A stretch of DNA of 64,000 nucleotides, from positions 1 through 64,000 of the IMG/VR virus record IMGVR_UViG_3300026533_000002. One strand, given 5' to 3'. The notes beneath the pieces are model-generated. The model made no database searches. It was given only the letters and a program-made list of their open reading frames with translations, and was not told where the DNA came from. Shown here piece after piece: positions 5,865-26,996 of the stretch. Made by a program: the position numbers and the translations under genes. The DNA is from a virus. Numbering within the stretch: position 1 is the stretch's first letter; the number at the start of each line of letters is the position of its first letter.

Positions 5865-6350
5865 ATGGCAGGAACTATAAAGTTCGAGAAGTATAAGAGG
5901 CTAGGTAAGACTGTATTCTTTGCTACAAATGAAAATACTAGTGAGCATACTAACTTCAGTATTGGATATGATACTCCAAGAGAATTTCATCATAAACCTA
6001 TATCAGACTTAGATTCAGAAGTATTACTTAGTATTACAGTAGTTAGGGATGTTGAGTTCTATAAAGACTACTCAGCAGAGGTTGAGTTTATGGACTCTAT
6101 TGCTAATGTTGTTTACTTAGACAGCATTGGTAATAGTACAGACTCTGAGCTATTAGCTGAAGGTTATGAGGTATTAATAACTTACCCATCTTCTAAACCA
6201 GTTTATGGTATAAGTAGACAATACACTGGAGAACTAGAGCAAGGCTGTACAGAGTCTAGTAGTGTTAAATACGAAGGTAGGATACTAGATCCTTCAATTA
6301 CATTAGTAAAGGCTGTGCTAGTTACAGAACATAAAGAGGAGTTAATATAA
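5865..6350 (+). CDS. Hypothetical structural protein, 161 aa
   Basis: Beta-rich protein without recognised motifs. Its stop codon overlaps the next start (TAATG), indicating translational coupling with the 500-aa repeat protein. It lies in the internal/appendage gene group of an N4-like order. Function not recognised. Confidence 0.55.
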   Translation: MAGTIKFEKYKRLGKTVFFATNENTSEHTNFSIGYDTPREFHHKPISDLDSEVLLSITVVRDVEFYKDYSAEVEFMDSIANVVYLDSIGNSTDSELLAEGYEVLITYPSSKPVYGISRQYTGELEQGCTESSSVKYEGRILDPSITLVKAVLVTEHKEELI

Positions 6351-7852
6351 TGGTAGACATTAAATGGAATAGTCTAGTAGGTGATAAAACTGTTGAGGTA
6401 GGAGGGTTTGTAGGAGACTTGATGACAATCTCTGCTGCTCATATTGATAAGGCAGTACAGGCTTCTAGGCTGACTCAGGACCAAGCAGGTGAAGTATACG
6501 CTGCTATGATACCTAGTGCTTTTCAGAATGGTATGCAATTCCTATTACAGGAGAAGTTAGTAGAGGCTCAGATAGCTAAGGCTGACTTAGATGTTGAGAT
6601 AGCGGCTATTAATAAGATATTGGTAGAGAGACAAGTTCTCCAGATAGAGACTAATATAGAGATCTCTAAAGAGATGCATGAGGCTAAGGTTAATGAAGTT
6701 ACATTGGCTACTGCAAGAGCTAACACTCAGTTAGAGGATAGCCTATTAAGTTCTGACCTACAAAGAAAAGCTACTGAAGCTCAGACTATTGAGATTAAGA
6801 AGGCTAGTACTAGAGCAGACACTCAGTTGAGTGATTCTTTAATTAGTGCTGATACACAACGTAAACAAATAGTAGCACAGACAGAAGAAGTTGTTAAAGC
6901 CAGTACTAGAGCTGATGAGCAATTAGCTGATAGCCTGCTTACAACTGACAAGCAAAGAGTGTTATTAGATACTCAAGAAGAGGTAGAGACTTATAAACTA
7001 AATACTATGCTGCCTAAAGAAGTTGAGGTTAAAGAAAGACAGATAATAGAAGCTGAAACTATGGGTACTAAGAATAGAGAGTCTATAGATAAGAAGGATG
7101 CAGTTAGTGAAGCTCAGTTGACTCTTGTTAATGCTCAAGCTACTGAAGTTAGAAAGAAGTCTGCTAGAGACACTGCTATGAATACTGCTCAGATAAAAGA
7201 ACTAGAGAGAACTACTTCTCGTAAGGATGCTGAGTCTGCTCAAGTTGTAACTGAGAGAACTGAGAAGTGGGATAAACAAAAGAACATAGTAGATGACCAG
7301 GTATTTATGAGTAGTGTGGATAAGACTAATAAAGCTAGAAATGTTGAGCTAGATATTCATCAGAAAGAGCTAGTGGCTAAACAACTAGTAGCTGATACTG
7401 AGTTCAACGTAGAAAAGAAAGAGATTATGACTCATACTCGTAAGGATAATATTAGAACCAAAGCTGCTGAACAATTTGCCGAGTTCCTTAAGTATATGTC
7501 TGCTTCTGATGCTGTGCCAGCTGCTACTGACTTCTATAATATAAGAGTTCTTATAAATGATATGGTTAAAGGTAGTGAGGATCCTGATAGAGCTCCTACA
7601 CCACTTGTAGTAAGAACAGGGTTTAAAATGGGTAAAGGCCCTTTTACTTTAAAAGGTACAGCTGATAATGATGCAATATATACTGATGACAATGGTAAGA
7701 ACTGTAACGCAAACTATGAGATACTAGGAGCAACTGGTGGTGGTACTGATGATAAAGACAGAATCCCAATAGAGACTACTGTTCCTAGTGAGTTTAATGG
7801 TGGAGTAGTTGGTACTATTTATGGCGCTACTGACTACACTAAGACTAAATAG
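6350..7852 (+). CDS. Coiled-coil virion protein with 32-residue repeats (N4 gp54-position)
   Basis: Protein of 500 aa. Most of it (residues ~60-390) is charged and predicted helical. Three tandem repeats of exactly 32 residues are visible at about 123-215; each begins ARANTQL, STRADTQL or STRADEQL and then D-S-L-(L/I). The C-terminal ~110 residues are Gly/Asp-rich and non-helical. Position matches N4 gp54, a structural protein. A long coiled-coil or tail-interior role is inferred; no enzyme motif is seen. Confidence 0.65.
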   Translation: MVDIKWNSLVGDKTVEVGGFVGDLMTISAAHIDKAVQASRLTQDQAGEVYAAMIPSAFQNGMQFLLQEKLVEAQIAKADLDVEIAAINKILVERQVLQIETNIEISKEMHEAKVNEVTLATARANTQLEDSLLSSDLQRKATEAQTIEIKKASTRADTQLSDSLISADTQRKQIVAQTEEVVKASTRADEQLADSLLTTDKQRVLLDTQEEVETYKLNTMLPKEVEVKERQIIEAETMGTKNRESIDKKDAVSEAQLTLVNAQATEVRKKSARDTAMNTAQIKELERTTSRKDAESAQVVTERTEKWDKQKNIVDDQVFMSSVDKTNKARNVELDIHQKELVAKQLVADTEFNVEKKEIMTHTRKDNIRTKAAEQFAEFLKYMSASDAVPAATDFYNIRVLINDMVKGSEDPDRAPTPLVVRTGFKMGKGPFTLKGTADNDAIYTDDNGKNCNANYEILGATGGGTDDKDRIPIETTVPSEFNGGVVGTIYGATDYTKTK

Positions 7853-10054: not shown

Positions 10055-10858
10055 ATGGGTCAATTAACAGCAGCAGAGAAAAAACAACTGGAGAGGGATG
10101 GTTTCATCATTAAAAATGGAGAGTATATAGAAGGCTCAGCTTTTGTAGGTATGCCTATCAATGCTACAAATAAAGAAAATCTTCAACAAGTTCAATCTTT
10201 AAGTCCTCCCGCTCAGAAACTTTCTACATGGGAACAGGTTAAAGGTACGACCAATTCTAATGTAATGGATTCATGGGCAATTAGAAATGCTAAAATAGAA
10301 GACCCTTATGGCGCTGCTTATGGCTACATGGATAAAGATGTATCAGCTAAACCTGTAAGTAGTATATACCAAGGGTTCGATGGAGATGTTGGTGTTAAAT
10401 CACTAGTAAAAGGCTATGCTCCTAGCAATACTACTGACTCATTCTTAAGTACTGATGACAGTAACTGGGGTACTATAAAAGATAATTGGAATAATTCTGG
10501 AACTCTTAAGCAATTAGGTGACGGCTCAGTAGTTAAGCAAGGACTGGTATGGAACTCTAAAGCAGGGTTTGGTGATTACGATAATGTAGGGCAGTATAAC
10601 TCATTAAACAACTTAACAGGAGATAAAGCTTTATCTAATAAAGACTTTGCATTAGGTGTGCAAAATGAGAACCAATCCACAGCTAATACTATAGGCCTTG
10701 CACAAGCTGGGTTAGGGGCTGCCTCATTAGTAGGTAATATGTGGGTAGCTAATGAGAATAGAAAGATTAAAGAAGATGCTTTAGATTACCAGAAAGAACA
10801 AGATGCAGCTGCAACAGCTAAGACAGATAAGTTCCAACGTAGATTAGGTGGTCTATAA
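10055..10858 (+). CDS. Hypothetical virion protein, 267 aa
   Basis: Starts after AAAGGATATAACA. Gly/Asn/Ser-rich body with a mildly hydrophobic segment near residues 215-232 (GLAQAGLGAASLVGNMWV) followed by a charged helix. Its stop overlaps the next ATG (TAATG). Position fits the N4 gp52 neighbourhood; a role in the virion interior is inferred only from that. Confidence 0.55.
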   Translation: MGQLTAAEKKQLERDGFIIKNGEYIEGSAFVGMPINATNKENLQQVQSLSPPAQKLSTWEQVKGTTNSNVMDSWAIRNAKIEDPYGAAYGYMDKDVSAKPVSSIYQGFDGDVGVKSLVKGYAPSNTTDSFLSTDDSNWGTIKDNWNNSGTLKQLGDGSVVKQGLVWNSKAGFGDYDNVGQYNSLNNLTGDKALSNKDFALGVQNENQSTANTIGLAQAGLGAASLVGNMWVANENRKIKEDALDYQKEQDAAATAKTDKFQRRLGGL

Positions 10859-13212
10859 TGGGTTACTATGAATCTAAGAGAAGAGGAGCACTAGTAAACC
10901 CTACTATAGAAATAGGTAATGTAAATGCTTCTACTAATGCTTTAATGGGCAACTTGAATAACTTTGTTAGTAATCAAAGACAACAAGATGCTGTTAATGT
11001 TCAACAAGCTCAGAGAGAAGAAGCTTTAGCTTTAGAAGCTGAGAAGTATAAAGCTGCTCAAACTAGGCTAGCTACTCAAGATGCTATGGCCGCAACTGCG
11101 TTCAATACTCAACAGTTAATTAGAAATAATCAACTAGCAGAGTATGGTAGAAAAGTAGACCAAAGAAATACATTAGCTGATCTTAATAAGAACTTTACTA
11201 CTGTTGGTATGAAGCAAGGTATGGGCCTAACTGAGGCAGATATAAATGCACAGTACAGTAAAGCTAACGATGCTTACGAGAAGGGGTTAGTTACTAAAGG
11301 ATTAGATAGAACTAATGAGCAAATAGCTGCAATGTCGCCTAAACAAAGAGATGCTTGGAGAGAGAGTACTAAAGGCTTATACACTGACCCATTCGACAAT
11401 GGTAAAGGTACTGGTCAAGCTGACTTTGAGAAGAAGTATTTAAAATCATTTAATACTGCTACAGATGCTACTTATACTCAAAGACATGATGCTATTATTA
11501 AAGCTTATACTGACAAAGGTATACCGCTAGACGTAGCCGAACAACAAGCTGCATTGAGATTGAAAGGTGCACAGACTGAAGCTCAGAAAGCAGAGTCATG
11601 GAATAAAGCAGCTGAGAAACAGTACGCTAGGGAAATGGAAGTATATAAAGTCGATCCTAAGTACCAGGCTAATATAATTAAGTATAATGAGTCTCTACAA
11701 GGTAATACAGCTAGTGGAAGTACTAAGTCAGGTAAAGATGCTTTATCTGATGTATTTAAAGCTAATGGAGTAAAAGCTAAAAACATAGCTGGTAGTTTAA
11801 ACATAATAGACGATTCTTTGATGGAAGTAAATAAAGCACTTCCTGACGGTGTAGATAAGTTTACTACAGATGATATTACTAAGTACGTAGCAGCCTCTAT
11901 AGAAGAAGGTGGATTTTTCTCTAGTACAGGTGTTAATAGTGAAGCTCTTAAGGCACTTATTATAAGTGGAGCTAAGACTGGAGACATTAAACATACTAAG
12001 AAAGGTACACCTATAGCTTTACCTGATATTAAAGAACCTAAGTATAAGACTTACACGGTACCTGAAGCTAGGACAGCTCAGGAGTTACTAGATATTTATA
12101 AAGAGCCTACAGTTAGCAAGGTCAATAACTTAGAGACTATAAGTGATACCATTAAGAACACAGAGAATGGTACAGTTGGTAAAAGTATCTCACCTAGTGA
12201 AAAAGTAACCCCATTGACGGGCGGACAGAAAATCGATATAATTAATACAAGTAATGAAGGCGTTATAGTAGATAAAGATGGGAAAGCAGTAACAAATACT
12301 GCAATTAAAAGTAAGTTGGAGAAAGTTAGAGAAGCTCTTGAGTATAAGAGCACTACTGGAGCTCCAAAAGCTATGTACAGTTTTATACCTAAAGAAGGTT
12401 CTAAAGGTAGTTTTGCAGAGGATGCAGGTATTGCAACTACTGACGGTTCAGGCTCTAAGAAGTTACTAAATTATCAGAATGCACTTAAGAAGCTGTCAGA
12501 GAAGGATAGAGTTAAGTACTTTGAATCATTGGAACCTAGGTATAGAGAACAAGCTTTTAAACTAGCAAATACACTTGAAAGAGGATTTATTACTGGTAAT
12601 GTTGGAAGCTGGGGTTATGATGTGTATGATTCTACTACAGGTACAATAGGTGACATTTGGAGAGGCGGTAAAGCAGCAGCAGGTTCAGTGTATGATTTCC
12701 TAGCTTATGATGCTATAAATAAAGACCCAGACAAAAGAGATATAAATACTAGAGTTCTAGACGCTGTAGGTAAGTCTGCATATGAAAAGGATACTAAACA
12801 GGATAAGTATAATGAATCATTAGATACCTTACGCAAAGTATTTAGAGGCGAAGTACCTGCTATTACAGTACCTAATAAATCTATAGATGAACTAGGTAAA
12901 ACAGGACCAATCACTGCTAGTAAAAATAAGTACATAAAACAGCTACTATCTACCAAAGTACTTACGCCTAAAAGTTACAGCAACTTAGTCAATGCTTTGG
13001 ATGGAGGTACTCCAGAACATAGTACTAGTACGTTATCTCCTGTAGAGCCTATTAGAACTAAATTTATGGATCAAGATGTTCTAGCAACTAAAGTTGTAGA
13101 TGATGTACTAAGTAGCTCAAAAGGTTTTGAAGATGCAATTAGACGCTTTATAGCTGTTGGAATATCAGCAGATGAGGCTAAAACTCTAGCTATGAATTAC
13201 TACAGACCATAA
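10858..13212 (+). CDS. Large internal virion protein upstream of vRNAP
   Basis: Protein of 784 aa. Residues ~1-130 are Gln/Ala-rich and helical; the middle is Lys/Ser/Thr-rich; the C-terminal ~200 residues include GNVGSWGYDVYDSTTGTIGD and YDFLAYDAINKDPDKRD. No catalytic motif recognised. Coupled by overlap to the 267-aa gene, and followed after 42 bases by the vRNAP gene with its own promoter. It corresponds by position to N4 gp51 and is probably ejected or packed with the vRNAP. Confidence 0.6.
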   Translation: MGYYESKRRGALVNPTIEIGNVNASTNALMGNLNNFVSNQRQQDAVNVQQAQREEALALEAEKYKAAQTRLATQDAMAATAFNTQQLIRNNQLAEYGRKVDQRNTLADLNKNFTTVGMKQGMGLTEADINAQYSKANDAYEKGLVTKGLDRTNEQIAAMSPKQRDAWRESTKGLYTDPFDNGKGTGQADFEKKYLKSFNTATDATYTQRHDAIIKAYTDKGIPLDVAEQQAALRLKGAQTEAQKAESWNKAAEKQYAREMEVYKVDPKYQANIIKYNESLQGNTASGSTKSGKDALSDVFKANGVKAKNIAGSLNIIDDSLMEVNKALPDGVDKFTTDDITKYVAASIEEGGFFSSTGVNSEALKALIISGAKTGDIKHTKKGTPIALPDIKEPKYKTYTVPEARTAQELLDIYKEPTVSKVNNLETISDTIKNTENGTVGKSISPSEKVTPLTGGQKIDIINTSNEGVIVDKDGKAVTNTAIKSKLEKVREALEYKSTTGAPKAMYSFIPKEGSKGSFAEDAGIATTDGSGSKKLLNYQNALKKLSEKDRVKYFESLEPRYREQAFKLANTLERGFITGNVGSWGYDVYDSTTGTIGDIWRGGKAAAGSVYDFLAYDAINKDPDKRDINTRVLDAVGKSAYEKDTKQDKYNESLDTLRKVFRGEVPAITVPNKSIDELGKTGPITASKNKYIKQLLSTKVLTPKSYSNLVNALDGGTPEHSTSTLSPVEPIRTKFMDQDVLATKVVDDVLSSSKGFEDAIRRFIAVGISADEAKTLAMNYYRP

Positions 13213-13224: not shown

Positions 13225-13250
13225 TATCCTTATATAACTTAAGGATAATT
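13222..13250 (+). promoter_or_regulatory. Hairpin sequestering the vRNAP ribosome-binding site
   Basis: Perfect 11-bp inverted repeat: AATTATCCTTA (13222-13232) and TAAGGATAATT (13240-13250) with loop TATAACT. The right arm contains AAGGA, the only ribosome-binding site before the ATG at 13255. A read-through transcript would fold and hide it; one starting at the adjacent promoter would not. Confidence 0.6.
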
Positions 13251-13254
13251 ACTC

Positions 13255-16200
13255 ATGAACGTAGACTTCACTCAATATAATAAAGACTTACAAGCTAGCT
13301 TAGTAACGCCTACTCTAACTCAGAATAAAGCTAATAGGTTAGCAGAAAGAACTGCAAGTAAAGCTCGTAGGTTGAGTGTTTCTGATGTGAATACATTATC
13401 ACCTATGGAGCTACAAGAACAAGCTTCAAACCTGATGTTACAACAACTATATAGAGATGATAAAGGTTTATACAGATATGACTTTGACACTTTAGATAGT
13501 GAAGGTAACTGGGCTAATCCTAACAAAAAGATCCGCTTTAACGAGGTTAACCAGTATGGTCAGCCTAATATAGAAAACTACTACATAGACAATAATACTA
13601 ATAATACTGAAATGAAAGCTGGTATAGCTAGATCAGATGTTAATCCAAACTTTATTAACCCTACCACAGGTGTACCAATTACTCCTTTCGAAGCTAGATA
13701 TATGGATAAGAAAGATAAACCTTCACCATACTTAGGAGGAGGAAGTAAATATGATGGTACTCCTGGAAGTTTAGGAGTTACTCCTGGTGACGGTGCTTTA
13801 CTAGATATTACATTACCATACAATACTGCATCTACCTTAGAACAAATAAGATTACAAAATAAAGGTGAGTTAGAGAATAGAAGCTCTGGAATCACTAAAC
13901 AAGACTACTATGCTGCTAAGAAACTAAGAGGTCCTGGAGCTAGTGAGTATAGCCCATCTATAACTAATGAAGAACTAGGCATACAAGCATCTCCTATGTG
14001 GAATGTGGGCTACAAAGGTAAAGATGAAGAACTGCCTAAAGACACTTACATGCCTATGGAAGGTAAGTTTACTACTGAAACAGGCTCATCTAGTAGAGGA
14101 CTTACTGATAAAGAGTATGAGAAACTAAAAGAAGAGTTGAAAGAACCTAACGGTAGAGTAGAGAACTGGGTAGATGCATTACAATTTAGCTTCGGACGTA
14201 TGGGCGCAGAAGTTGGTGATGCAATAATAGATGCAGGTGTTAGAATAGGTAAGGAAGGTGCTAAAGCCTTAACTGACCTAACAGAAGATGATATTAATAC
14301 TGCACTAACTAAAGGTACTCTAGGTAAGACTAAGCTGTTTGATAAGAATATGAACTTTACTTATTTTGATAAGTATAAGACTGGTAAAGAGTATGGCTAT
14401 GACAATACTAGAGTAATAGAAGTTCAAGAAGATGTGTCCGCAGCTTGGAAGTCTGGTGACCCTATACAGATAGCAGGTGCAGTTTTATCTGCTATACCTA
14501 AAGCAGGGCCAGAGTTTGCATTAGAAAGTTTTGCAGAGATGGCTGGAGGTGTTGGAACTTTACCTAGTAAAGCTGGGTTAACTGCATTCTCGTTACTAGC
14601 TGCTAAATATGATAATGAAATGTTAGAAGATAGAGAAAAAATAACAGGTAGACCAGCTACTAATGCTGAAAGACTTGGTACTGGTATAGCAGCTATTGCT
14701 GTGGCAGGGCTTAATAGATTAGGAGCTGGAGAAGCTATAGGAGATACTAATGTAGTTAATACATTACTATCAACTGTTATTAAAGACGGTACTGAAGGAG
14801 CTGTTAAAAGTGCACTTAAGTCAGCAGTTAAGGTACTAGCTGTTACAGGTGGTAAAGGAACTTATGAAGGGTTAGAGGAAGTTGTCCAAGACTATACTCA
14901 ACAAATAGGTACTAAGTATGGAACTAAAAAAGAGAAAGACTTAACTAACTATAATAAAGTAGGTGAAGCATCTCTACAATCATTTACTGGTGGTATGGCT
15001 GCTGGTTCTACTATTTCAGCTGCTGGACAAGGATACTCAACTATAGCTGATGGTAAGAAACCTACTACACCTACTACTGGGGATACAGAAGTACAAGAAG
15101 TACCTGAACCTGAAGTAGCTAGGCAAGAACCTCCTAAGGTTAAGAGAACTGCTAAAGAATCGACAGAAGCGTTCGGTGCTGCGTATGCAGAGAAACTTAA
15201 AGGCTCAGCTCCTAAAATGGAGATACTACAATTAACTCAGAACCATTTAGACGAAGTTAGAGGTATGGAGGATAGTCCAGATAAAGTTCACTTCGAAAGT
15301 TTACTTAAAGGTGTAGTAGAACAAACTAAGTCTGATATTATAAAAGAACTAGATTCAGATAAGAGTAGTGATACTATAAATACTATCAACAAATCTTTCG
15401 GCTCAGACCCTGTAATGGAAGATACTATATTTAATGCTGAAGAAGCAGGAGATACTAAACTAGCTGATAAGATAATAGAAGCTAGTGATAAGCTAGGTAC
15501 TAAGGAAGCTAAGGAAGTTAAAGCTAAAGTAGAGTCTATTAAAGAAGAAGTAAAAATACTTAAGTCTATTAAGCAAGTAGAAGATGAAGTTACTAAAGGA
15601 AGTAAAGGTTATGGCACTTACTTCAAAGATGCTAAGAAAGGTATATACGACTTAATTACTGCTAATAAGAATAATGATGAGGAAGGGCAAGATAAAGCAT
15701 TTAAAACTGTTACTGATAACTTAAAGCGGTTAGATAGCTTTAAAAAGTCACAAACAGCTAAGTTAAGTAAGTTACAGGAAGCTGAGGCTGAAGGTATCCA
15801 GAAAATGGCTGATGAGGTAAGTATACCTTTAACTAGCAATAACTATAAAGAGATAGCATTAGCTCACATTAAAAAGTATTACCACGGTAAACTACCTTAT
15901 ACTAAGATACCTGTTAAGTATAGTAAGTACAGCGATCCATTTGATATGGATATTGGACATATAGCTTCTCATTATGCAAAAGGTAGTAATATTGGTCTGT
16001 ATAAAACTATGGGTGAAATAGAGAATTCTATCAATAGTATGGACAAATTAACAGGCAATATCAATGATAGAATAGCAGCTTTGAATGAAGCTCCTACAGA
16101 TACAAATAAGGTACCTACAAGCGACGAAGTAGTTTCAAAGGGTACATTACCTATACAAGAGGATTCTAAGCCTACAGGAGCTCCTACAGTCTCTGATGAA

Positions 16201-19200
16201 GTTATTACTGAAGATAGTGTAGATACTAAAGATACTACTGTTACTGGTAAAGTTAAAGGAGAATCAGTAGCTGCTAAAGCTATTAAAGAATCTAAAGTCC
16301 CTAACAATACTATAGTAGATAAGTTAAAACAAGTTGATCCTGAGTATAGTGAGTACACTCAAGAAGATGTAGATAATGGAACTATCACTGAAGAAGAACT
16401 TACTAGTCTACAAGAAGAGAAAGATGACGTACCTAACACATTAATAAGTTTAGTTGAAAGAAATAAGCTACCTATTAGAGTAGTAAGAGATACTATTAAA
16501 GAGCTAGAAGAAGATATCGGTGCCATACAAACACCAGATAAACCTAACTTAATTAATAAGTTACTTGAAACTTCTACAGTAAGTGAAAAAGAGTTAGCTA
16601 AAGCTTTAGAAAATGAGACTCCAGCAGCAGTAGATTACTCTGAAGAAGATGTTGCTGATGGGACAATAACAGAAGCTGACTTGAAGAGTCTGCACGGTGA
16701 AGATGGGGAGTTTGATGGTACACTAGTAAGACTAATTGATAATGGATTATTACCTGTAAAACTTGTTAAGCATACAATAAACATGTTAGAAAAAGAGAGT
16801 GCCTCTGACAATAAAGATAAGGCACCTACAAGCCCTAAAGGCAAAGTAGAGGATAAAGTACCAGCAACTCCTACTAAAACTCCTTCAGAGCAAAGTATAG
16901 CCCAGCTTACTAGTGATGAGCCAGAGATACCAACAGTACCAGACTATGTAACAGATGATGAGGTGATAGTTGATTATGGTGGGCACAGCATAGATGAAGA
17001 GATAGATTATACTGATACTACTGTATACGAAGAGGAAGCTACTACTATTAGAGATATGTTTAAAGATGTATCTACTGAAGGTAAGTCTAAAGCTGAAGCA
17101 TTCTTAATCAAATCTATACAAAATGATACTACTGGTAAAGTTACTGAAGCAGTAATAGCTGACATAGATGAGTTACAAGGTAGAATAGAATCTATTAACG
17201 ATGTCATAGCTAATTCTGAGGGTGGTTTAAGTAAAGACTTCGATAGAACAGCAGCCTTAAAGAATACTAGAAATAAGTTATCTAAAATAATAGAAGATGT
17301 TAATGCTAAGATTACTGATGCTAAAGAGCGTAAAGCACACGAAGCTACTCTAACAAAGAATATAGTTAACTTAGCTAAAGCTCAAGCTAAAATAGCTAAC
17401 GAGATTAAATCCCTTAAATTAGGTAAAGCAGGTCCATTGAAAGGAGCTAAAGCCTTAACTACTAAGATCAATGCTATGTATGATAAGACGAAGCCTAAAA
17501 TAAAAACTACTAAGCAGGCTAGTAAAGCTAAAGCTACTTTTAAAGAGCAACAAGCTGAGTCAGAAGATTCTATTAGAGGTACTAAAGCTATTAAAGAAAT
17601 ATTAAGTGATAGTATTAATAAAGGTAGGACTGCTAAGGCTGGGGAAGGTATAGGTAAGACATTAAGACAATCACTAGCTAAGGTTAAACAAGACTTAGTA
17701 GCTTCATTACCAGCTAATATCTATGAACCTGTAAAGAATAGTACTAGTAGAATATCAGCATCTAATATGAAAGTAGATGCTATTAGTGATACGTCAGCTG
17801 CTATAGCTTATGACGTAATGGATACATTAAAGACAGTATTAGCACCAGCTAACTCTATGGAAGAAGTTGAATTTACAGATAAGCAAGGCAATGTTAAGAA
17901 GTCTAAAGCTACTAATAGAGAATATGAACATTGGAGCAACTCTCCAGGTAGATCTCTATTATTTGATAGCAATGGAGATATACAGCCTAATGTTGCATTA
18001 GCTATTGGAGCATCTGTGTTTGAGTTAATAGGTTTAGGTAGTAGTGAGATTGGTATTAATGATAGTAACTCTATATCAAGAGCATTAACTATACAAGAAC
18101 ATGAAGTAACTCCAGCTATGAGAACATTACTAAAAGAAGGAAGCTTTAGAAAGTTAGTAGCTTTCAAACTAGGTAAGTCTATTGAGACATCTCTAGGTAT
18201 TAGAGTTAGAGATGATGCTTCTACTGTTGAATCTCAGAGATTTACTACAGACTTAGGTAATATGGCTTTACTATATGCTCAAGAAAGAGGTTATATAAAG
18301 CCTATGACTAAAGAGAATTCTATTAAAGTAGAAGAATATAATCAAATAGTAGGCAGTAGCTCAGATGTAGCTGAAGGATCTATTATACCTATGGTTACAC
18401 TTAGTCATCTTGACAATGCTAGAGAGAAAGCCAAGATGGTAGCTAACTCTAAAGCTGTGTTTGAAGACTTAGAAAAGGTACTTAAGATAGAGAGAACTGT
18501 TAAAGGTGTGTTATTCAAGAAACCTAAAGTAACTACTAAATCTAAGATGAGAAAGAACGAAGCTACTGTTGAGCCTGAAGAATCTAAAGATGTTATATCT
18601 AATGTACTAGAGCCAACTGAGTACGGTGTACATATGGAAGCTGTAAATAGATTAAAGAAGTTCACTAGAGAACAAGCATTAAAAGTAATGGGTTTTAAGA
18701 CTGCTTTAGAGATGAATGGTCAAGAGGCTTCTGAAGGTAAGAAGTATATACCTGGAATGGCTAAGGATGATAGAGAAGGACAAGTAGCTAAGAATGCTGC
18801 ACTGGTGGCTGAATATGATGATTTAATGGAACTTCATAATACTGTAGATACTAAGAAAGAAAACAATAAGATGTGGTTTGAATGGTTCTTTACTAAGAAT
18901 GGTAGATTTATATTAGACAGTATAGGTATTAATCCTCAGACTAATAAGAACTTACATAGATGGCTAGTAAGCCCTTTAAAACAACATAACAATCTTATTA
19001 TGATGAATAGTAAGAAAGATGTTACAGTATTTAAGTTAGCAGTAAATCAATCATTTGGCGTGTCTATAGATAAGTTATCTGAAGAGACTAATATGAAAGT
19101 AGCTGACCATATATTAGCTATGGATGCGGATGAGCTAGAGACTCTTATTAGTGAAAAAGCTAAAATAGATACTGGACTTAAAGAGTCTAACGGTAAAGCT

Positions 19201-21345
19201 ATAAAGTTAGAAGCAGAGCATTTAGGACATGCTATACAAGGTTTACTAGCTGTAGAAGCTTATAATAATAGAACTAAAGTAAATGGTGTAGAACAGTTTG
19301 AAACTGGTATAGCTGTAGAGTTTGATGCTGTTACTAGTGGTTTTATACTTAAGCTTATGCAAATGCCTATAATTAAAGATACAGAGATTTCACTAACAGA
19401 CTGGTTAGCTAAGGGTGCTATATTTATAAAAGATGCTTTTAGCTTTGGTAATAAGGAATCTATGGGTTCTAAAATTGAGAATAAAGTAATAACAGATACA
19501 TATGTAACATCTGCAAGAACACTGGAGAATAGGGATAAGTTTGAATCAGTAGAAATGGTTAAAGGAAAGCCTAAAGTAGAGGACTCATACGGACTATATG
19601 ACATTACTAATAGACTAAGCCCAGAAGTAACTAAAGACGGTGTAGTACAGTCATTTGGAAGGTTATTGTTAAAATACCCTACTATGATGTTCAATTACGG
19701 GTCAGCATTAGCTACTATTAAAAAATATGTTAGTGTTGAGCTTACTCAAGATATACCAAATATAGCTATTGATAGAGTTGAAGGTAAAGAGTTCAGAGAT
19801 AAGCTATTAGAAGTACAGAACATACCTAACACAGAAGAAGCACACAATAAACTAATTAAAGAGTTTAAAAATACTAGTTTCACGTACATAACATTAAATA
19901 TTAATGGTAAAAAAGTTAAACTACAAGAACATTTAGAAAGTCTAATGGTAGACCAGTATGGTACACAAGTAGCTGATGTATTTGAGTTAAACTTTGGAGA
20001 TATGATTAGAGCTAATGAGAAAACTAGAAATGCTTTTAGAGCTATGACTAGATTATTTATCATGGACTATGATAGACAATTAAGTTACATTAACAAGCCT
20101 ACTAAAGGTGACGAGGCTGATGTACTTAAAAGCCTTATGAACAAGTATCCTGCTCTAAGAGCTCCTTTAAGTAACACAGAAGGCTTTGATGACTATATCT
20201 CTATTATGAGTAAAGGTAAGGCTACAGCTGCTAATGCTTCTGTATCTACAGCTTTGAATACTAATATAGAGCAGAAGAGTGGGACTACTAGTATTACTAC
20301 TAAAGCATTACTTACAAGATTTGAAGAAGCTATTAGTTCTGGTGTAGTTCTACCTATTCACTATATCGATGGGACTATAATGGCTCTAACACTGAAGCTA
20401 GGAGAGCTAGGAGTTCATGATGCTATTGTACTAGGAATTCTAGGTGCTATGGATACTGTTAAAAGATACAATAAGAATGTATATGAAGTATCTAAGAATT
20501 ATTCAGTTGTTGAAGAAACACTCAAGTCACTAGAAAGAGCTATAGAAGCTAGTTCAGAAGCTGATATACTAGATGTAGATATTAACAATGCTGAAGAGAC
20601 TGGCGGTAGAGTACTTAAAGATAGTAAAGGTAATGCACTTACAATAGGCGAGATACAGGCTGAGTTTAATAAATTAGCAGATGAAGTAAGAGCTGAGAGA
20701 GAAGAGTTATTTAGTAAAGATATGAGAATAGATCATATGATTGCTACTAAAGACTCAGCTTATGAAGTTATAGGCTCTAAGACTAGGAAAGCTAAAGCAG
20801 AGCCTGAAGCTAAAGCTAGTGATATTAAAGAAGCATTAGTTAAGACATTTGCAGATAGAGGTATAGAAGCTAATGTTAGAAATGTAAGTGAATTACTATT
20901 TAAGGAGATAACTAAAGTAGTTATATCTGGTAAAGAGAAGACTACTATAGAAGATAACTTAGAAGCTATTAAAGGTGTTATGAGTAAGACTCAACTTAAA
21001 GCATACAACATAGCTGAAGCAGATGGAGCAGGTATAGCTTATATAGCTTCACAGTTTGCTACTGTAGTTAAGTTTAGAAAAGAAGTAGGTAAGATAACTG
21101 AAGAAGACACACCAGCTAACTTTGCTAGTAGATTTCTTAGTACAGCTAAGAAGATAGTTAAGTTTATTAAAGGTGATGATACTGAGTTAAGTAGAGCATT
21201 ACTTAATGTTATTGGTAGAGGTATAAGAAATAAAGATGTTAAAAGTCATAGAGTATTAATAGGCAAAGTGTTAGGTGATAAGTATAGTGATACACATTTA
21301 GCTATAATTAAAGCACTAAATGAGTTTGATAAGGAATGTAACTAA
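13255..21345 (+). CDS. Virion RNA polymerase (N4 vRNAP-like) giant protein
   Basis: Protein of 2,696 aa. It carries all motifs of T7/N4 single-subunit RNA polymerases: TKNGR (T1880-R1884); motif A DAVTSG (catalytic D2024); motif B R2136-xxx-K2140-x7-Y2148-G2149, the exact T7 R627/K631/Y639 spacing; motif C HD (H2388-D2389). Distances between them (140, 112, 253) are close to those of N4 vRNAP (135, 107, 285). The polymerase domain probably spans ~1450-2560. The N-terminal half is injection or polyvalent-type sequence: apolar segments near 478-495, a GTYEGLEEVVQDY stretch near 535-550, and two copies of an EDVxxGTIT repeat at ~1031-1090 and ~1127-1185. N4 packages its vRNAP and injects it to transcribe early genes; the same is inferred here. 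The stop overlaps the next ATG (TAATG). Confidence 0.85.
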   Translation: MNVDFTQYNKDLQASLVTPTLTQNKANRLAERTASKARRLSVSDVNTLSPMELQEQASNLMLQQLYRDDKGLYRYDFDTLDSEGNWANPNKKIRFNEVNQYGQPNIENYYIDNNTNNTEMKAGIARSDVNPNFINPTTGVPITPFEARYMDKKDKPSPYLGGGSKYDGTPGSLGVTPGDGALLDITLPYNTASTLEQIRLQNKGELENRSSGITKQDYYAAKKLRGPGASEYSPSITNEELGIQASPMWNVGYKGKDEELPKDTYMPMEGKFTTETGSSSRGLTDKEYEKLKEELKEPNGRVENWVDALQFSFGRMGAEVGDAIIDAGVRIGKEGAKALTDLTEDDINTALTKGTLGKTKLFDKNMNFTYFDKYKTGKEYGYDNTRVIEVQEDVSAAWKSGDPIQIAGAVLSAIPKAGPEFALESFAEMAGGVGTLPSKAGLTAFSLLAAKYDNEMLEDREKITGRPATNAERLGTGIAAIAVAGLNRLGAGEAIGDTNVVNTLLSTVIKDGTEGAVKSALKSAVKVLAVTGGKGTYEGLEEVVQDYTQQIGTKYGTKKEKDLTNYNKVGEASLQSFTGGMAAGSTISAAGQGYSTIADGKKPTTPTTGDTEVQEVPEPEVARQEPPKVKRTAKESTEAFGAAYAEKLKGSAPKMEILQLTQNHLDEVRGMEDSPDKVHFESLLKGVVEQTKSDIIKELDSDKSSDTINTINKSFGSDPVMEDTIFNAEEAGDTKLADKIIEASDKLGTKEAKEVKAKVESIKEEVKILKSIKQVEDEVTKGSKGYGTYFKDAKKGIYDLITANKNNDEEGQDKAFKTVTDNLKRLDSFKKSQTAKLSKLQEAEAEGIQKMADEVSIPLTSNNYKEIALAHIKKYYHGKLPYTKIPVKYSKYSDPFDMDIGHIASHYAKGSNIGLYKTMGEIENSINSMDKLTGNINDRIAALNEAPTDTNKVPTSDEVVSKGTLPIQEDSKPTGAPTVSDEVITEDSVDTKDTTVTGKVKGESVAAKAIKESKVPNNTIVDKLKQVDPEYSEYTQEDVDNGTITEEELTSLQEEKDDVPNTLISLVERNKLPIRVVRDTIKELEEDIGAIQTPDKPNLINKLLETSTVSEKELAKALENETPAAVDYSEEDVADGTITEADLKSLHGEDGEFDGTLVRLIDNGLLPVKLVKHTINMLEKESASDNKDKAPTSPKGKVEDKVPATPTKTPSEQSIAQLTSDEPEIPTVPDYVTDDEVIVDYGGHSIDEEIDYTDTTVYEEEATTIRDMFKDVSTEGKSKAEAFLIKSIQNDTTGKVTEAVIADIDELQGRIESINDVIANSEGGLSKDFDRTAALKNTRNKLSKIIEDVNAKITDAKERKAHEATLTKNIVNLAKAQAKIANEIKSLKLGKAGPLKGAKALTTKINAMYDKTKPKIKTTKQASKAKATFKEQQAESEDSIRGTKAIKEILSDSINKGRTAKAGEGIGKTLRQSLAKVKQDLVASLPANIYEPVKNSTSRISASNMKVDAISDTSAAIAYDVMDTLKTVLAPANSMEEVEFTDKQGNVKKSKATNREYEHWSNSPGRSLLFDSNGDIQPNVALAIGASVFELIGLGSSEIGINDSNSISRALTIQEHEVTPAMRTLLKEGSFRKLVAFKLGKSIETSLGIRVRDDASTVESQRFTTDLGNMALLYAQERGYIKPMTKENSIKVEEYNQIVGSSSDVAEGSIIPMVTLSHLDNAREKAKMVANSKAVFEDLEKVLKIERTVKGVLFKKPKVTTKSKMRKNEATVEPEESKDVISNVLEPTEYGVHMEAVNRLKKFTREQALKVMGFKTALEMNGQEASEGKKYIPGMAKDDREGQVAKNAALVAEYDDLMELHNTVDTKKENNKMWFEWFFTKNGRFILDSIGINPQTNKNLHRWLVSPLKQHNNLIMMNSKKDVTVFKLAVNQSFGVSIDKLSEETNMKVADHILAMDADELETLISEKAKIDTGLKESNGKAIKLEAEHLGHAIQGLLAVEAYNNRTKVNGVEQFETGIAVEFDAVTSGFILKLMQMPIIKDTEISLTDWLAKGAIFIKDAFSFGNKESMGSKIENKVITDTYVTSARTLENRDKFESVEMVKGKPKVEDSYGLYDITNRLSPEVTKDGVVQSFGRLLLKYPTMMFNYGSALATIKKYVSVELTQDIPNIAIDRVEGKEFRDKLLEVQNIPNTEEAHNKLIKEFKNTSFTYITLNINGKKVKLQEHLESLMVDQYGTQVADVFELNFGDMIRANEKTRNAFRAMTRLFIMDYDRQLSYINKPTKGDEADVLKSLMNKYPALRAPLSNTEGFDDYISIMSKGKATAANASVSTALNTNIEQKSGTTSITTKALLTRFEEAISSGVVLPIHYIDGTIMALTLKLGELGVHDAIVLGILGAMDTVKRYNKNVYEVSKNYSVVEETLKSLERAIEASSEADILDVDINNAEETGGRVLKDSKGNALTIGEIQAEFNKLADEVRAEREELFSKDMRIDHMIATKDSAYEVIGSKTRKAKAEPEAKASDIKEALVKTFADRGIEANVRNVSELLFKEITKVVISGKEKTTIEDNLEAIKGVMSKTQLKAYNIAEADGAGIAYIASQFATVVKFRKEVGKITEEDTPANFASRFLSTAKKIVKFIKGDDTELSRALLNVIGRGIRNKDVKSHRVLIGKVLGDKYSDTHLAIIKALNEFDKECN

Positions 21346-24300
21346 TGGGTTGTAAAGCTAATGATGCTAGAAAGAAAGTATGGGATATCTTAGAAGAAAG
21401 CAATGTACCAATGAATTTAAAGAAGCTAATAGCTAATGCAGTTGAGAAGGATTACAAAGAGAAAGCTGTTAGAGCTACTGAAGCATCAAAGAGAGAAGCT
21501 GAAGCTGATATAGTAAAAGCTATAGAAGAAGTAGATGACTCTAAGATTGTAAAAGAGAAGACTAAAGGTTCGTTATGGATAATGAGAAGTAAGTTTGACC
21601 CTGACTTTGGTAATCCTTTCCTATCTAAGCCTTCTAAAGATCCTAAAGCTAGTGACTTTGTATTACCTAAAGCTACAAACAAAGACTTAACATTAGCATT
21701 TTATAACTGGCTAGAGAATTCAGATAATGTACCTGCAGGTGTTAATGCTAAGACTAGAGAAGCACTAAATACTAAGAGAGATACTATAATCAATAGCATT
21801 GATAAAGTACTGAATGCTGAGTCACTAGTTTACAATAGTACAGGAGCTAATGAAAGTATAAACCCAGCTAAAGTGTTGATACTTATAAGCAATGTTGTTG
21901 GTGAGAAGTCTGGTAGTAAGTCTAAAGAAGGTAGCCAGTCTGAAAAGTATACTTCACACTTTAATAAGGGTAAGGCTACTGTAAAACCCAAGAATGGGCC
22001 AGATATGTTAAAAGCTAAACTAAAGGCAGAAGAGTCTAACTCTTATATAGGTTATGGTAAAGATGGTTCTAGTACTAAGCTATATGAGGACCAATTAAGA
22101 GAGCAAGGTATACCTATAAATAAAGGTAATTACTCTAAAGGTGATGTAGTATTTGCAAGTATAAATGGAACACCTACTAAGAAAGATTTAGACAGTACAT
22201 ATAACGAGGTAGTAAAAGCACTTGAATCTGGAGCTAAAGTTATACTAGATAGTAAAGAGTATATAGAAGATAGTTCATACAATAAAGGTGAGGCTCAACT
22301 AGCTAAGTTACTACAAGATAATGGGTACATTAGAGCAGATTCTAAGACTAAGGTACAAATTAGTCATAAGGCTAAGAGTGGTGGGTACATAGTCAAGAAT
22401 TATAGCGTAGGTATATGGAGTAAGAAACAAAGTAGCACTGGTAATAAGGACACTGCTAAGGACATTGTAAAGTTTACAGACATGTATACTACACTAGATG
22501 GTAAAGGGTATATTGATTCACGTATATCAAGTATTGAAAGTAGTTCAGACAATGAGCCTAGGTTAGTCTCAAGATATTATGATATCCTAAACAAAATAAA
22601 GTCTCCTTTACTAGTGCCTACAAAGGAATTACTTACAGCTATAGCTGATAGACCTGTTGATTTCTATATAGATATAAGTAATAGCCTGTCTATAGGCGAC
22701 GGAAATTTCATGAAAAAATATAAGTCAGATATAGAAAAAGTAGTGCCTGTAAAGGATTTTAAGAAATATGTAAACTACAGAGCAGGTGGTATTGCTGATA
22801 TAGGTTTCAATATTCCTGATAATATTGAAGCTTCCGCAGTTTTAGCTACTAGTAGCAAGTATACAATTAACGACATTGAAGAGATACTAGTAGATAGAAC
22901 TAAAACATTGGAGGACAACTTTAATATATGGAAGGGCATAGAAGAAGTTCTTAATAAGTCTTATAGTAGATGGAAAGACTCTGGAGGTACTGCTAAACAA
23001 GTAGACACTAATACTAAAGATATAAGTAAGTTCATAAAGTCACTTCCTTTGGATGATAATGAATTATATGAAATATACGATAAAGAAGATACATTTGGTA
23101 TGGATACCTATACTCTAAAAAAAGCTATAATACATCTTATTATATATGGCGGGTTAGAAATTGATAGCCCTATTGATGTAAGTCTCGAGGAAATGGCTAA
23201 GTATAAAGGTACTGACTTAGGAGAACAGATAAAGGACTACATGAAAAGTAATCTAAAGGGCCATGGAGGACACAGCCTGCCTAAAGATGATACTAATAAC
23301 TTAACTATTTATATAAGTAAATTATATGGTTTCGACTTACAGAAAGTAAATAGACTAGCTGTTCATTACGAAGAAGACTACTCAGAAATAACATTAAATG
23401 ATGTAAAAGATAAAACTTTTAAAGAAGTTGTAGAGGATGCCAACCTAGACTATACAGTACATGAAATTGGGCAGAACTTGCAGCCTGACTCTGGTGTAGC
23501 AGCAGTACTTGTGAAGAGCGGTACTAAGGATATAGAAGATGTTAGACTAGCTAGTAATATTTCAGAGATATCTGAAAGCATTAAGGACGGTTACAATAAA
23601 ATAGTAAGTACTGAGTTTGGAACATCAACTCAAAAACCTAAAAGTATTAAAACTACTAGTAACAGAGAACTTACACTAGAGTCAATCAAAGGTAAGTCAG
23701 TACAAGGTATAGTTGAAGAGGAAGGTTTTGAGTACTTCACTCAAACTGAGGCAGACAGAAGGTTGCCGTCAAGTACAGTTATTACCCTAGCTAATTCAGA
23801 TGGAGAACATATATCAAGTTTTACACCTACACTTGAAGAATTTAAAAACCTGATAAGTAGAGGGTATAGTACAATTAAAAGCACTAATGATGTGCACGAA
23901 ATACCGTTCCAACACTCATCAGACTTACCTTCTATAAAAAGTAACAGTAAAGAATTTGAGAGTATAAGATCTAAGTTAGCTAAGATGTACCCTGAAATTA
24001 AAGTAGAAGCATTAGATAAGATAGTAGACAGTGAAGGTATAGAAGTACTAGGTAAAGCATTAGATAGGATTGTGCAATACAATACTAATAAAGCTAAACT
24101 AGATACACTACCTCATGAGTATGCACATATTTATATAGACTTATTAGAAAGAACTAAGTTTGTTAAAGCCTTAATAGCTAAGACTATGAAGACACATAAC
24201 TTAAGCAGATACGATGCTAAAGAGTTTATTGTAACTCAAATGGGTGAGAATTACATAAAACAAATGAATGGTGAGAAGCTGAGTAAACCTATAGATAAGA

Positions 24301-26996
24301 GTCTACTTACTAGGTTATGGAAAGCTATAAAAGAGTTCTTTAATAAGGATGCATCTGAAGTAACTAAAGACATAGAAGAAGTATCTAAGAGATTTTATAA
24401 AGGAGAGAGAAGTACTACTAAAAGTAAAGTCAAAGCTAAATCAGCTACTAACACTGGAGATAGTAAAGGACCTACTACTAGAGTAGAGCTAAACTCTATG
24501 AGAGAATTAGATGCTTACATAGACTCAATAGCTAACAATAGAAGTGAAGCTACTAGAGCTAAACAGAAGTTAAAGTTCTTATCTAGTATAGTTCCAATAG
24601 ATAAGTTAGCAGTAACAGTACAAGATGTTCTATTATATGATGGTAAGAATGTAGATGGATTATACCACCATGGAGATGGATTAATAGAGTTAAGTAGAGA
24701 AGGTAACTTAGTAAATACTCTTGTACATGAGATAGTTCATTCACTTACTGAAAGAGCTTTACAGAAATCAGGCTTATCAGATACAGTTATGAAGTTAGAG
24801 AAGTTAAGAATAGAAGCTCATACTAAATCATATACTGAACTAGGAAATAAACCTAGTTTAATTTATGGGTTATCAGCTAATCAGACATTAGAAGAGCTAA
24901 ACAATGATACTGATGAGACTTTAATTAAATCAAGAGTAGCAGAGTTTGTAAGTGAATTAGTAGCTAACGATGAGTTACAAGACTTACTTACTAAGGTACT
25001 TAGAGAAAACCATAAGATACCTAGAAAAGTAGGTTCATTAGATGTAGTAGTTAAGTTATGGGGTAGATTAGTTAACCATTTAACTGAGGAAGATATAGAA
25101 AGTGCTTTAAGTGACGGGCTCACTCTAGTGAGAGCATTGATAACTGAAGGAGTTACTACTGATGGTTCTACTAAGAAAGCTCTAATAGTAAGAGCTAAAG
25201 AGAGAAGTCTAAATTTTGATGACATAAAAGACAAGCTAGCTAAGCTTTATCCTGAAATAAAAGTAGAAGCCTTGAATAAGGTAGTTAGTAGCGAAGGTGT
25301 AGAAGTACTGAGCAGAATTATAGACGGAATTATACAATACAGTAATGGTAAGGCTAAGTTAGATACACTACCTATCGAGTATGCTAACATATACATAAAG
25401 CTATTCAGAGATGCACCTATTGTGCAAGAAGCTGTTAAACAATGGGGTTCAGAAGAGAAGTTAGTTGAAGCTATAGGAGAGCAAGTAGTTAAGCAAGAAG
25501 GTAAGGTGTATGGTTGGTGGTCTAAGTTCAGTGAATGGACTAGTAATTTATTTGAAAAACTAAGTACTAGTAAAAAAGAAGAACTAAGTAAAGTACTGAC
25601 TGATGCGTTTCTACTTAACCAGAATTTGCATGCTATATCTTCTAGGAAAAGAACATATAAACAGTACAGGGATCTGTTAGCTAATGTGCAGCTGAGATAT
25701 AAGAAGGCAGGTATAGAAGTAACTAGTAAGGAATTTGCTGAGTACGCCTCTACTGTATTCCCAGACTCAGAGCTACAGGACCTGTACAAGCACGATACTA
25801 AGCTGCAAGAGAGTAAATTAGGCTTAGAAGGCACTAAAGAGTTTGCCAGCATTGTAGAAACTCTTCAAGGGAACGTTACACCTTTCACTTCACTTGCTGA
25901 AGATTTTGGAGATGAAATAGCTGCTGACTACAGCTTAAGTAAGAGAGAGTATATACAGAGTATAGTGGATGGTACTTTAGAGATAGACGAGGATACGGAG
26001 GACTGGTTAGAAGGTCTTGAGAAGGCAGATATATTAGAAAAACTAACAGGGAATAAAGATGCAGAATTGCCGACTTATAGTGAATCTATACCTGCTTTTA
26101 GTATACGTACTGGTAAACCTTTACAGATGAATGCTTCAGAAGTAAGGCTAAATAGTGGGAGTATGGAAACTTACAATGACGAGAGTATAGCTATACTAGT
26201 GAAGAAAACATCATCGAAAGGTAGGTATAACAAGTTAATTATGGACAAAAACTATGTAAACAGCAAGCTTAGTGATAAACTAGTAAGAGACCTTATAGTT
26301 GTAACTTCAATGACCAGTGATGATTTTGATGCCACGTACGACATACTACTAGATACTATGGTACCAACTATTCAAAAACTGCTTATGGCAGACAAGATTG
26401 ACAATGACACAACACTTGTCGATGTTTTTGATGAAATTATCAATAACCAAAACACTTACCCTGATACATTAGATTCTTTAGTGATGCTAGACTCAAAATT
26501 ATTAGATAGAATTAAAGCTAAGAAATCAAGTATTACAGAAGACTACAACTACTTCGTTGAAAGTATGGTACAGGAAAGTAGAAAGTCAATATACAGAGAA
26601 GGGTTTAAACGTGATAAAATAGGCTCACAGACAGGATTTAACTTTAGAGGGGAAGGTTTTTACTTTGGAGAGTTAGGGCAGGCAGCATGGGGAGACTCTA
26701 CATACACATATTTTGTAAAGTTAAATGGAAAGCTTGACGATTACAAGTTCGGGTATATACCTGACCTTAATACAGGTTACAGTGACTTTGACACTGCTGA
26801 GGTAAAAGAGGAGAAGACTAGAGCTTACTTAGACAATTATACTGACAGGTCTAAAGAAGCTTACGTAGAAGACCCTAGCCAAGTCCACATATTCGGCTCA
26901 GCAAATGATGTAGAAATGTTAAAGAAGTGGCTTGATAACAGTTATGCTAAAATGTCTATAAAAGATAAGGCTAAAGAAATAGCTGAAAGCTGTTAA
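21345..26996 (+). CDS. Giant polyvalent virion protein with metalloprotease-like, SLOG-like and ART-like regions
   Basis: Protein of 1,883 aa, coupled to vRNAP. Visible regions: ~234-360, YIGYGKDGSST...DVVFASINGT...YNKGEAQLAKLL, resembling a domain recurrent in phage polyvalent proteins (possibly SLOG-like); ~880-1070, a module with HEYAH (H924-H928); ~1060-1200, HEIVH (H1128-H1132); ~1300-1450, a second copy of the first module in which HEYAH has become IEYAN (1344-1348); ~1765-1870, RGEGFYFGELGQAAWG, resembling the core of ADP-ribosyltransferase-like domains. HExxH is the zinc-peptidase signature. Large polyvalent proteins are known to be injected with phage DNA and to act on host defences or envelope; that is the inferred role. 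Individual domain names are by-eye calls. Confidence 0.65.
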   Translation: MGCKANDARKKVWDILEESNVPMNLKKLIANAVEKDYKEKAVRATEASKREAEADIVKAIEEVDDSKIVKEKTKGSLWIMRSKFDPDFGNPFLSKPSKDPKASDFVLPKATNKDLTLAFYNWLENSDNVPAGVNAKTREALNTKRDTIINSIDKVLNAESLVYNSTGANESINPAKVLILISNVVGEKSGSKSKEGSQSEKYTSHFNKGKATVKPKNGPDMLKAKLKAEESNSYIGYGKDGSSTKLYEDQLREQGIPINKGNYSKGDVVFASINGTPTKKDLDSTYNEVVKALESGAKVILDSKEYIEDSSYNKGEAQLAKLLQDNGYIRADSKTKVQISHKAKSGGYIVKNYSVGIWSKKQSSTGNKDTAKDIVKFTDMYTTLDGKGYIDSRISSIESSSDNEPRLVSRYYDILNKIKSPLLVPTKELLTAIADRPVDFYIDISNSLSIGDGNFMKKYKSDIEKVVPVKDFKKYVNYRAGGIADIGFNIPDNIEASAVLATSSKYTINDIEEILVDRTKTLEDNFNIWKGIEEVLNKSYSRWKDSGGTAKQVDTNTKDISKFIKSLPLDDNELYEIYDKEDTFGMDTYTLKKAIIHLIIYGGLEIDSPIDVSLEEMAKYKGTDLGEQIKDYMKSNLKGHGGHSLPKDDTNNLTIYISKLYGFDLQKVNRLAVHYEEDYSEITLNDVKDKTFKEVVEDANLDYTVHEIGQNLQPDSGVAAVLVKSGTKDIEDVRLASNISEISESIKDGYNKIVSTEFGTSTQKPKSIKTTSNRELTLESIKGKSVQGIVEEEGFEYFTQTEADRRLPSSTVITLANSDGEHISSFTPTLEEFKNLISRGYSTIKSTNDVHEIPFQHSSDLPSIKSNSKEFESIRSKLAKMYPEIKVEALDKIVDSEGIEVLGKALDRIVQYNTNKAKLDTLPHEYAHIYIDLLERTKFVKALIAKTMKTHNLSRYDAKEFIVTQMGENYIKQMNGEKLSKPIDKSLLTRLWKAIKEFFNKDASEVTKDIEEVSKRFYKGERSTTKSKVKAKSATNTGDSKGPTTRVELNSMRELDAYIDSIANNRSEATRAKQKLKFLSSIVPIDKLAVTVQDVLLYDGKNVDGLYHHGDGLIELSREGNLVNTLVHEIVHSLTERALQKSGLSDTVMKLEKLRIEAHTKSYTELGNKPSLIYGLSANQTLEELNNDTDETLIKSRVAEFVSELVANDELQDLLTKVLRENHKIPRKVGSLDVVVKLWGRLVNHLTEEDIESALSDGLTLVRALITEGVTTDGSTKKALIVRAKERSLNFDDIKDKLAKLYPEIKVEALNKVVSSEGVEVLSRIIDGIIQYSNGKAKLDTLPIEYANIYIKLFRDAPIVQEAVKQWGSEEKLVEAIGEQVVKQEGKVYGWWSKFSEWTSNLFEKLSTSKKEELSKVLTDAFLLNQNLHAISSRKRTYKQYRDLLANVQLRYKKAGIEVTSKEFAEYASTVFPDSELQDLYKHDTKLQESKLGLEGTKEFASIVETLQGNVTPFTSLAEDFGDEIAADYSLSKREYIQSIVDGTLEIDEDTEDWLEGLEKADILEKLTGNKDAELPTYSESIPAFSIRTGKPLQMNASEVRLNSGSMETYNDESIAILVKKTSSKGRYNKLIMDKNYVNSKLSDKLVRDLIVVTSMTSDDFDATYDILLDTMVPTIQKLLMADKIDNDTTLVDVFDEIINNQNTYPDTLDSLVMLDSKLLDRIKAKKSSITEDYNYFVESMVQESRKSIYREGFKRDKIGSQTGFNFRGEGFYFGELGQAAWGDSTYTYFVKLNGKLDDYKFGYIPDLNTGYSDFDTAEVKEEKTRAYLDNYTDRSKEAYVEDPSQVHIFGSANDVEMLKKWLDNSYAKMSIKDKAKEIAESC

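Follow-up and report, generated by a model that had tools for sequence, protein, structure and literature searches.

The stretch of viral DNA analysed here, which we call the window, comprises bases 1-64000 of the 118,976-bp virus record IMGVR_UViG_3300026533_000002, and it contains what is probably an N4-type virion RNA polymerase (vRNAP) that has undergone gene fission. On the + strand, subunit A (13255..21345; 2,696 amino acids (aa), ATG to TAA) carries the N-terminal region and the T7-like RNA polymerase (RNAP), and subunit C (27008..30940; 1,310 aa) the C-terminal domain (CTD), which is inhibitory in N4, while an intervening protein of 1,883 aa, B (21345..26996), is encoded between them. 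The vRNAP of phage N4 (gp50) is the textbook single-chain virion polymerase. Its RNAP domain spans residues 1007-2101 and is followed by a linker (2102-2123; 23 residues, invisible in the structure) and by a CTD formed by C1 (2124-2375, with an HExxH motif) and C2 (2376-3500), which allosterically inhibits the polymerase (PMC12633501). Our comparisons show, at the level of sequence, that A and C are homologous to consecutive parts of gp50, with the cut at the linker and inheritance within one clade.

The first-pass annotation, made from the letters of the DNA, had proposed an N4-type vRNAP at 13255-21345, and the profile and model comparisons bear this out. The PHROG 2206 family, "virion RNA polymerase", matches residues 736-2565 of A with its columns 643-2041 (E-value 2e-61), and a profile made from ten single-chain schitovirus vRNAPs covers residues 1188-2586 (E 4e-78). 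Within A, the N-terminal region (about 1-1515) is followed by the single-subunit RNAP domain (about 1516-2474) and a tail of about 220 aa. The residues that had been picked out as four RNAP motifs, R1884, D2024, R2136, K2140, Y2148 and D2389, all align with the N4 catalytic residues R424, D559, R666, K670, Y678 and D951 in an alignment of 12 proteins (N4 residues in mini-vRNAP numbering); motifs A, B and C and the TxxGR-like Arg of an N4-type vRNAP are present, and motif A reads EFDAVTSG in the window phage, compared to ExDGxxxG in N4. The AlphaFold model of the RNAP domain is of low confidence (pLDDT 48); when it was compared to the PDB with Foldseek, the top nine matches were N4 vRNAP entries (E 1e-11 to 2e-10) and the tenth was T7 RNAP. 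A phmmer search of the PDB with A alone gave no match.

PHROG 2206 is one family of 3,406 columns, and its columns 2341-3390 match C at E 1.9e-117, more strongly than any part of it matches A. Two open reading frames (ORFs) cover this one family, as a repeat of the coverage analysis over whole records also showed, and the vRNAP of the window phage is therefore encoded as A and C with B between them. The conserved CTD is present as a separate protein, with the C1 zincin-like domain (HELIH at residue 261) followed by C2. An N4-free profile of the C proteins of the split clade finds residues 2455-3384 of N4 vRNAP in the PDB (E 6e-52), and the AlphaFold2 model of C (pLDDT 73) has as its only PDB fold matches with E <0.001 the N4 vRNAP entries 9pnt and 9pnr (closed and open complexes). 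Since residue 2474 of A aligns with N4 residue 2103, and C begins before C1, the alignments place the cut at the N4 RNAP-CTD linker, with extra tails on both sides. Instead of the single chain of about 3,500 aa of an N4-type vRNAP, two genes, for products of 2,696 and 1,310 aa, flank an ORF of 1,883 aa. The interval 13255-21345 is a true vRNAP ORF, but it represents only part of the enzyme; the split had been missed, the CTD being a separate gene at 27008-30940.

C is a separate gene in 22 distinct records, which comprise the window, AD45-P1 (Alteromonas phage vB_AmaP_AD45-P1, NC_021532, unclassified in NCBI), 19 environmental viral contigs, and one contig from a metagenome-assembled genome (MAG); some of these records are cut at a contig end. 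The relatives were found by alignment queries of viral contigs, while scans of viral contigs with A or B as a single-protein query gave no matches. Relative to the stop of A, the start of C lies at -20, -11, -10, -1, 0, 3, 7, 8, 12, 15, 23 or 26 nt, and all three frames occur; larger gaps of 529, 1236, 5662 (the window) and 6857 nt hold inserted sequence or genes. A purine-rich stretch is found 5' of the ATG in most C genes, and the CTD is retained nearly whole in every split phage. In the vRNAP trees, which are quick trees without bootstrap and with long branches, the split rows lie on one side of a single branch, both for the RNAP domain (11 of 11; Shimodaira-Hasegawa-like approximate likelihood ratio test, SH-aLRT, 100) and in a first CTD tree (10 of 10; 100), and one branch of a 66-row CTD tree parts 21 split rows from 45 single-chain rows (support 99). 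In both the RNAP and the CTD trees, the window phage groups with AD45-P1 and environmental contigs and separately from every sampled member of the Schitoviridae, so that the separate lineage suggested by the first-pass annotation is sustained relative to the described genera. These results indicate, as far as sequences allow, that the split is real and inherited by one clade, with one traced origin. We also observed that contig L109 (CALIBI010000067.1), whose split vRNAP is near that of AD45-P1, is part of a MAG labelled Sulfolobales and is probably a mis-binned phage contig.

The start of B overlaps the stop of A by one base, and B ends 11 nt before C. It possesses two zincin modules of the DTLPHEYAH family, one with HEYAH at residue 924 and a degenerate copy near 1363, plus an HEIVH at 1128; the zincB profile matches residues 872-1039 and 1292-1442. 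Based on these motifs and the module profile, we consider B to be a zincin-containing protein. Over 170 aa, its modules share 48% identity with the subunit A tail of contig L024; their identity to a protein inserted in the 104-kb IMG/VR contig 3300026521_000088 (L027/L089) reaches 46%. The latter contig resembles the window in having A, inserted proteins with a DTLPHEYAH zincin, and C, as well as a major capsid protein (MCP) 45% identical to that of the window phage, but two proteins are inserted between A and C instead of one. The first of them (13174-17052) has NADAR, AlkB-like 2OG-Fe(II) oxygenase, and DUF7831 domains. In contigs L070/L071, the RNAP, a DTVPHEYAH zincin, an HELIH zincin and the CTD follow each other in the A-B-C order of the window as one uninterrupted chain of 4,755-4,964 aa, which is the fused counterpart of A-B-C and which the CTD trees place next to the split clade but not within it. 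The linker thus looks like a site where extra proteins join and where the chain breaks. An HExxH motif follows the polymerase in all 10 of the single-chain schitovirus vRNAPs examined (HELVH at 2228 in N4), and the PG11 vRNAP has two such motifs about 237 residues apart. The DTLPHEYAH zincin is also found in giant phage proteins without N4-type domains (among L070-L101); one of them, ORF 2-18049 of L099, encodes a chain of 6,015 aa with this zincin and a DFDGD motif, possibly a crAss-type polymerase.

Compared to N4 vRNAP (PDB 2po4, 9pnr, 9pnt), the locus shares the order of the N-terminal region, RNAP domain, zincin-like C1 and C2, the full set of catalytic residues, its place in the head operon, and candidate GGA-loop hairpins near the early genes; it differs from the N4 chain of 3,500 aa in having the RNAP and the CTD as separate proteins with a third protein between them. 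AD45-P1, in turn, is the nearest annotated phage and possesses a split vRNAP (ORFs 94860-102347 and 90623-94852) whose parts are 22-28% identical to those of the window phage, and both phages have a gp43-type primase, a UvrD-type helicase, Sak4, SSB, PolA, ribonucleotide reductase (RNR), RusA, and a Clp protease. Unlike in the window phage, A and C of AD45-P1 have no intervening protein, the first His of the C1 motif is lost, and the primase is unsplit.

Under gene fission, A and C (and probably B), whose genes lie among the head genes, would be made late. By analogy with N4, they would be packaged together and ejected into the cell, here as individual polypeptides, behind tunnel proteins of the gp52/gp51 type, and A would transcribe the early genes from single-stranded hairpin promoters. 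Once in the cell, A and C may re-associate without a covalent link, and C may inhibit A in trans, making intermolecular a regulation that is intramolecular in N4; this association and inhibition we infer only. B may be an additional ejected multidomain protein, with modules of the zincin metallopeptidase type, inserted at the linker.

It is very improbable that the split is an artefact of sequencing, assembly or gene calling, or that it is bypassed by readthrough or frameshifting to give one chain. The adjacent parts in AD45-P1 are annotated "potential frameshift", and the main census of vRNAPs suggested that an error in gene calling or readthrough of a stop codon lay behind this split and united the parts (PMC10654107); moreover, some members (L021, L022, L028, L110, L120) have C in the same frame as A. 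Nevertheless, the variable offsets and frames between A and C and the insertion of whole genes fit no readthrough or frameshift scheme, and the inserted genes of the window and of L027, which occupy up to 6.9 kb between the two subunit genes, already contradict a single chain. Shigella phage pSb-1, whose identity to N4 is about 70%, served as a control and does resemble an error: its vRNAP is in three pieces, one cut lying inside C1 instead of at the joint, and the SSB gene of the same record is also broken. We therefore set pSb-1 aside as a probable error with a different cut. By contrast, 22 independently assembled records are split at the domain joint with a varying frame relation, most C ATGs are preceded by the purine-rich stretch, and the split rows form one clade. 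A less remote, albeit unlikely, alternative is that C has left the polymerase and become an independent ejection or structural protein, A being constitutively active without its CTD. The N4 RNAP domain retains activity in isolation, and in vitro the CTD has only an inhibitory effect (PMC12633501); A and C also lie kilobases apart in the window and in L027. Yet the CTD persists almost complete in each of the split phages, A and C remain in the same operon and in order, and their trees show the same split.

The third explanation, an ordinary member of the Schitoviridae with an unusual replication module, appears improbable, though not to the degree of an artefact. The members of this family have podovirus morphology and genomes of 59-80 kb and share 17 conserved proteins and three RNAP genes, one for the vRNAP and two for the RNAPII heterodimer (PMC7650795). 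The window phage matches about 12-13 of the 17 core proteins: gp24, 25, 39, 43 (split), 44, 50 (split), 54, 56, 57, 59, 68, 69 and, weakly, gp52. Among the core proteins sought in the phage, gp15, the gp42 family and gp67 were not found, and gp16 has a weak candidate. The genome of about 118.8 kb is above the range of the family, the vRNAP is split, the vRNAP trees place the phage outside all sampled genera, and the replication core, as described below, is mostly the N4 set.

Fission of an N4-type vRNAP remains the reading that we prefer, and several observations weigh against it or narrow it. A profile of the split-clade RNAP domains alone missed N4 in the PDB, returning one spurious match, and linking these domains to N4 requires pYD6A or PHROG 2206. 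In a 15-row MCP tree, the split phages fall in three places rather than in one group, so the history of the vRNAP is not that of every gene; this may reflect exchange of head genes or a misleading effect of long branches on the tree. The C1 HExxH of AD45-P1 and its closest kin has lost its first His, keeping the Glu and the second His, which argues that peptidase activity is not essential throughout the clade. Finally, the stems of the candidate promoters described below are interrupted, compared to the perfect stems of N4. Regarding the capsid tree, we observed that its incongruence with the vRNAP trees sets the MCPs of L043/L044/AD45-P1 against those of window/L041/L042, and that the MCP is annotated in two ORFs in AD45-P1 and in schitovirus A5.

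The enzyme family is already known, as is the calling of the AD45-P1 enzyme as two ORFs. New are the clade, the finding that the cut coincides with the linker of the N4 structure, the intervening proteins and their fused counterpart, and the candidate promoters; our literature search, for which most subscription journals were outside reach, found no paper treating the split as real. The census mentioned above was restricted to chains of 2,500 aa or longer that have the motif ExDGxxxG (PMC10654107), whereas ExDAxxxG is the form in the window phage and in nearly all of its split relatives, and many split A proteins are shorter than 2,500 aa; the split lineage has therefore been under-counted. 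A broader view, which we favour by a small measure, is that of a clade outside the described Schitoviridae in which the self-inhibited, single-chain polymerase of N4 has become a virion enzyme of several polypeptides. Its catalytic part and its inhibitory part would be packaged and injected apart from each other and would come together in the new host, and more injected proteins, with metallopeptidase and other effector-like domains, would have been inserted at the linker. The 2025 structure of N4 vRNAP left questions on the role of the CTD, on the passage of a 3,500-residue chain through a tail channel of about 35 A, and on the weight of CTD inhibition in vivo. A clade naturally cut at the linker makes these questions directly testable, as the two proteins can be produced, combined and mutated independently, and AD45-P1 is a cultured member of it.

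In N4, the leftmost 10% of the genome holds three early promoters, each a hairpin on the template strand whose heptamer, 5'-GCGRAGC-3', is centred at -11 (PMC4496689). A scan over 50 kb for the canonical form (perfect stem of at least 4 bp, loop GRA) recovered, with stems of at least 5 bp, exactly the N4 positions 95, 564 and 4553 (P1-P3) and one unrelated site. The same canonical scan of the genome of the window phage gave only three 4-bp matches, all away from the early promoter region. Three elements were found there as repeats, on the + strand of the record (G000) at 94590, 95840 and 97314 (12590, 13840 and 15314 in L005); they span 94.6-97.35 kb of the record and lie, on the template strand expected of such promoters, beside the divergence point in an early-gene region that is transcribed on the - strand. 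Each consists of CTTAACTTGT followed by a hairpin. The stems GTGCCG/CGGCAC, GTACC/GGTAC and GTTTC/GGAAC covary, the loops are GGA, GGA and AGA, the exact heptamer is present in one of the three, and a random genome would be expected to hold the combined motif 0.02 times. Because their number, strand, position, covarying stems and loop fit, we lean slightly towards considering them candidate vRNAP promoters.

The head genes of the window follow the N4 order that had been noted before, with portal, gp57, MCP, gp54 and gp52 as in N4, all on the + strand. The gp57 homologue, annotated as a tape measure protein (2335..3654), matches PHROG 2120 (E 4e-42) and N4 (E 3e-22); the MCP, N4 gp56 (3692..5056), is matched to N4 by phmmer (E 2.5e-65); and the virion structural protein of the gp54 family (6350..7852) matches PHROG 2050 (E 3e-7), the family of N4 gp54. 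The gene at 10055..10858 is a probable counterpart of gp52, the outer-membrane channel ejection protein, based on a weak match to PHROG 2646 (E 0.0012), to which N4 gp52 belongs. Directly 5' of A, a protein of 784 aa (10858..13212) without profile match is, from its position only, the counterpart of gp51, which forms the periplasmic tunnel. The C-terminal part of the portal, N4 gp59, lies at 231..1367 (tblastn with the N4, AD45 and A5 portals; PHROG 1216 columns 349-702) and its N-terminal part at the other contig end, at record 118041-118976. A fission of the portal was ruled out, as the gene runs across the two contig ends. The record ends, 1-146 and 118831-118976, overlap by about 146 nt with one mismatch, and since the portal gene spans their join, the genome of about 118.8 kb is probably complete, although the record is classed as linear.

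Neither of the N4 RNAPII subunit families, PHROG 2051 and 2166, has a match in the record. A protein of 566 aa at record 90579-92279 (- strand) shows possible RNAP motifs (GYDFIASG, RDEAKLVQQPYMHG and ILDAF); its weak best match is to the RNAPII large subunits of relatives, and it is tentatively a single-chain middle-gene polymerase.

The replication genes, which the first-pass annotation had described as a non-N4 module, belong for the most part to N4 families. In the N4 annotation, the primase is gp43, the Sak4-like protein gp44, the SSB gp45, PolA gp39 and the helicase gp37. The genes that had been called "AEP-like primase" and "DUF3987-like helicase" are, by their profile matches, consecutive pieces of one primase of the N4 gp43 family: the N-terminal half (49890..51293, -) matches columns 24-389 of PHROG 2135 (E 1e-44) and the C-terminal half (48997..49890, -) columns 463-706 (E 1e-23). 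This primase is encoded by two overlapping genes in the window phage and is intact in AD45-P1. Also on the - strand are the Sak4-like protein of the gp44 family (44381..45046; PHROG 2872/124), the SSB of the gp45 family (43618..44283; PHROG 743, E 7.5e-12), and the polymerase domain of a family A DNA polymerase of the gp39 family (52368..53699; PHROG 17, E 3e-39; Pfam DNA_pol_A, E 3e-19). RNR and RusA/RuvC resolvase genes are also present in several named Schitoviridae. The description holds for the helicase, a UvrD-type enzyme in common with AD45-P1 (32365..33846, -; PHROG 1967, E 3e-70) in place of the PHROG 325 of N4 gp37, and for the exonuclease (45408-46244), which is of a family other than that of N4.

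Some further genes complete the picture. Between the late and the replication blocks lies a T5orf172/MUG113 (GIY-YIG-like) gene (window 31588-32253, -), possibly a homing endonuclease. The window also carries RNA repair genes, namely an RNA ligase (41477-42550), a RlaP-type nucleotidyltransferase (54042-55079) and a CCA-adding-type tRNA nucleotidyltransferase (55042-56253), and a NAD salvage gene, for nicotinamide phosphoribosyltransferase, lies at 70984-72459 of the record. In the L027 contig (L052/L057), the large terminase (record G009, 44168-46936) is encoded by a frame of 997 aa that contains an intein-like insert of about 1.1 kb.
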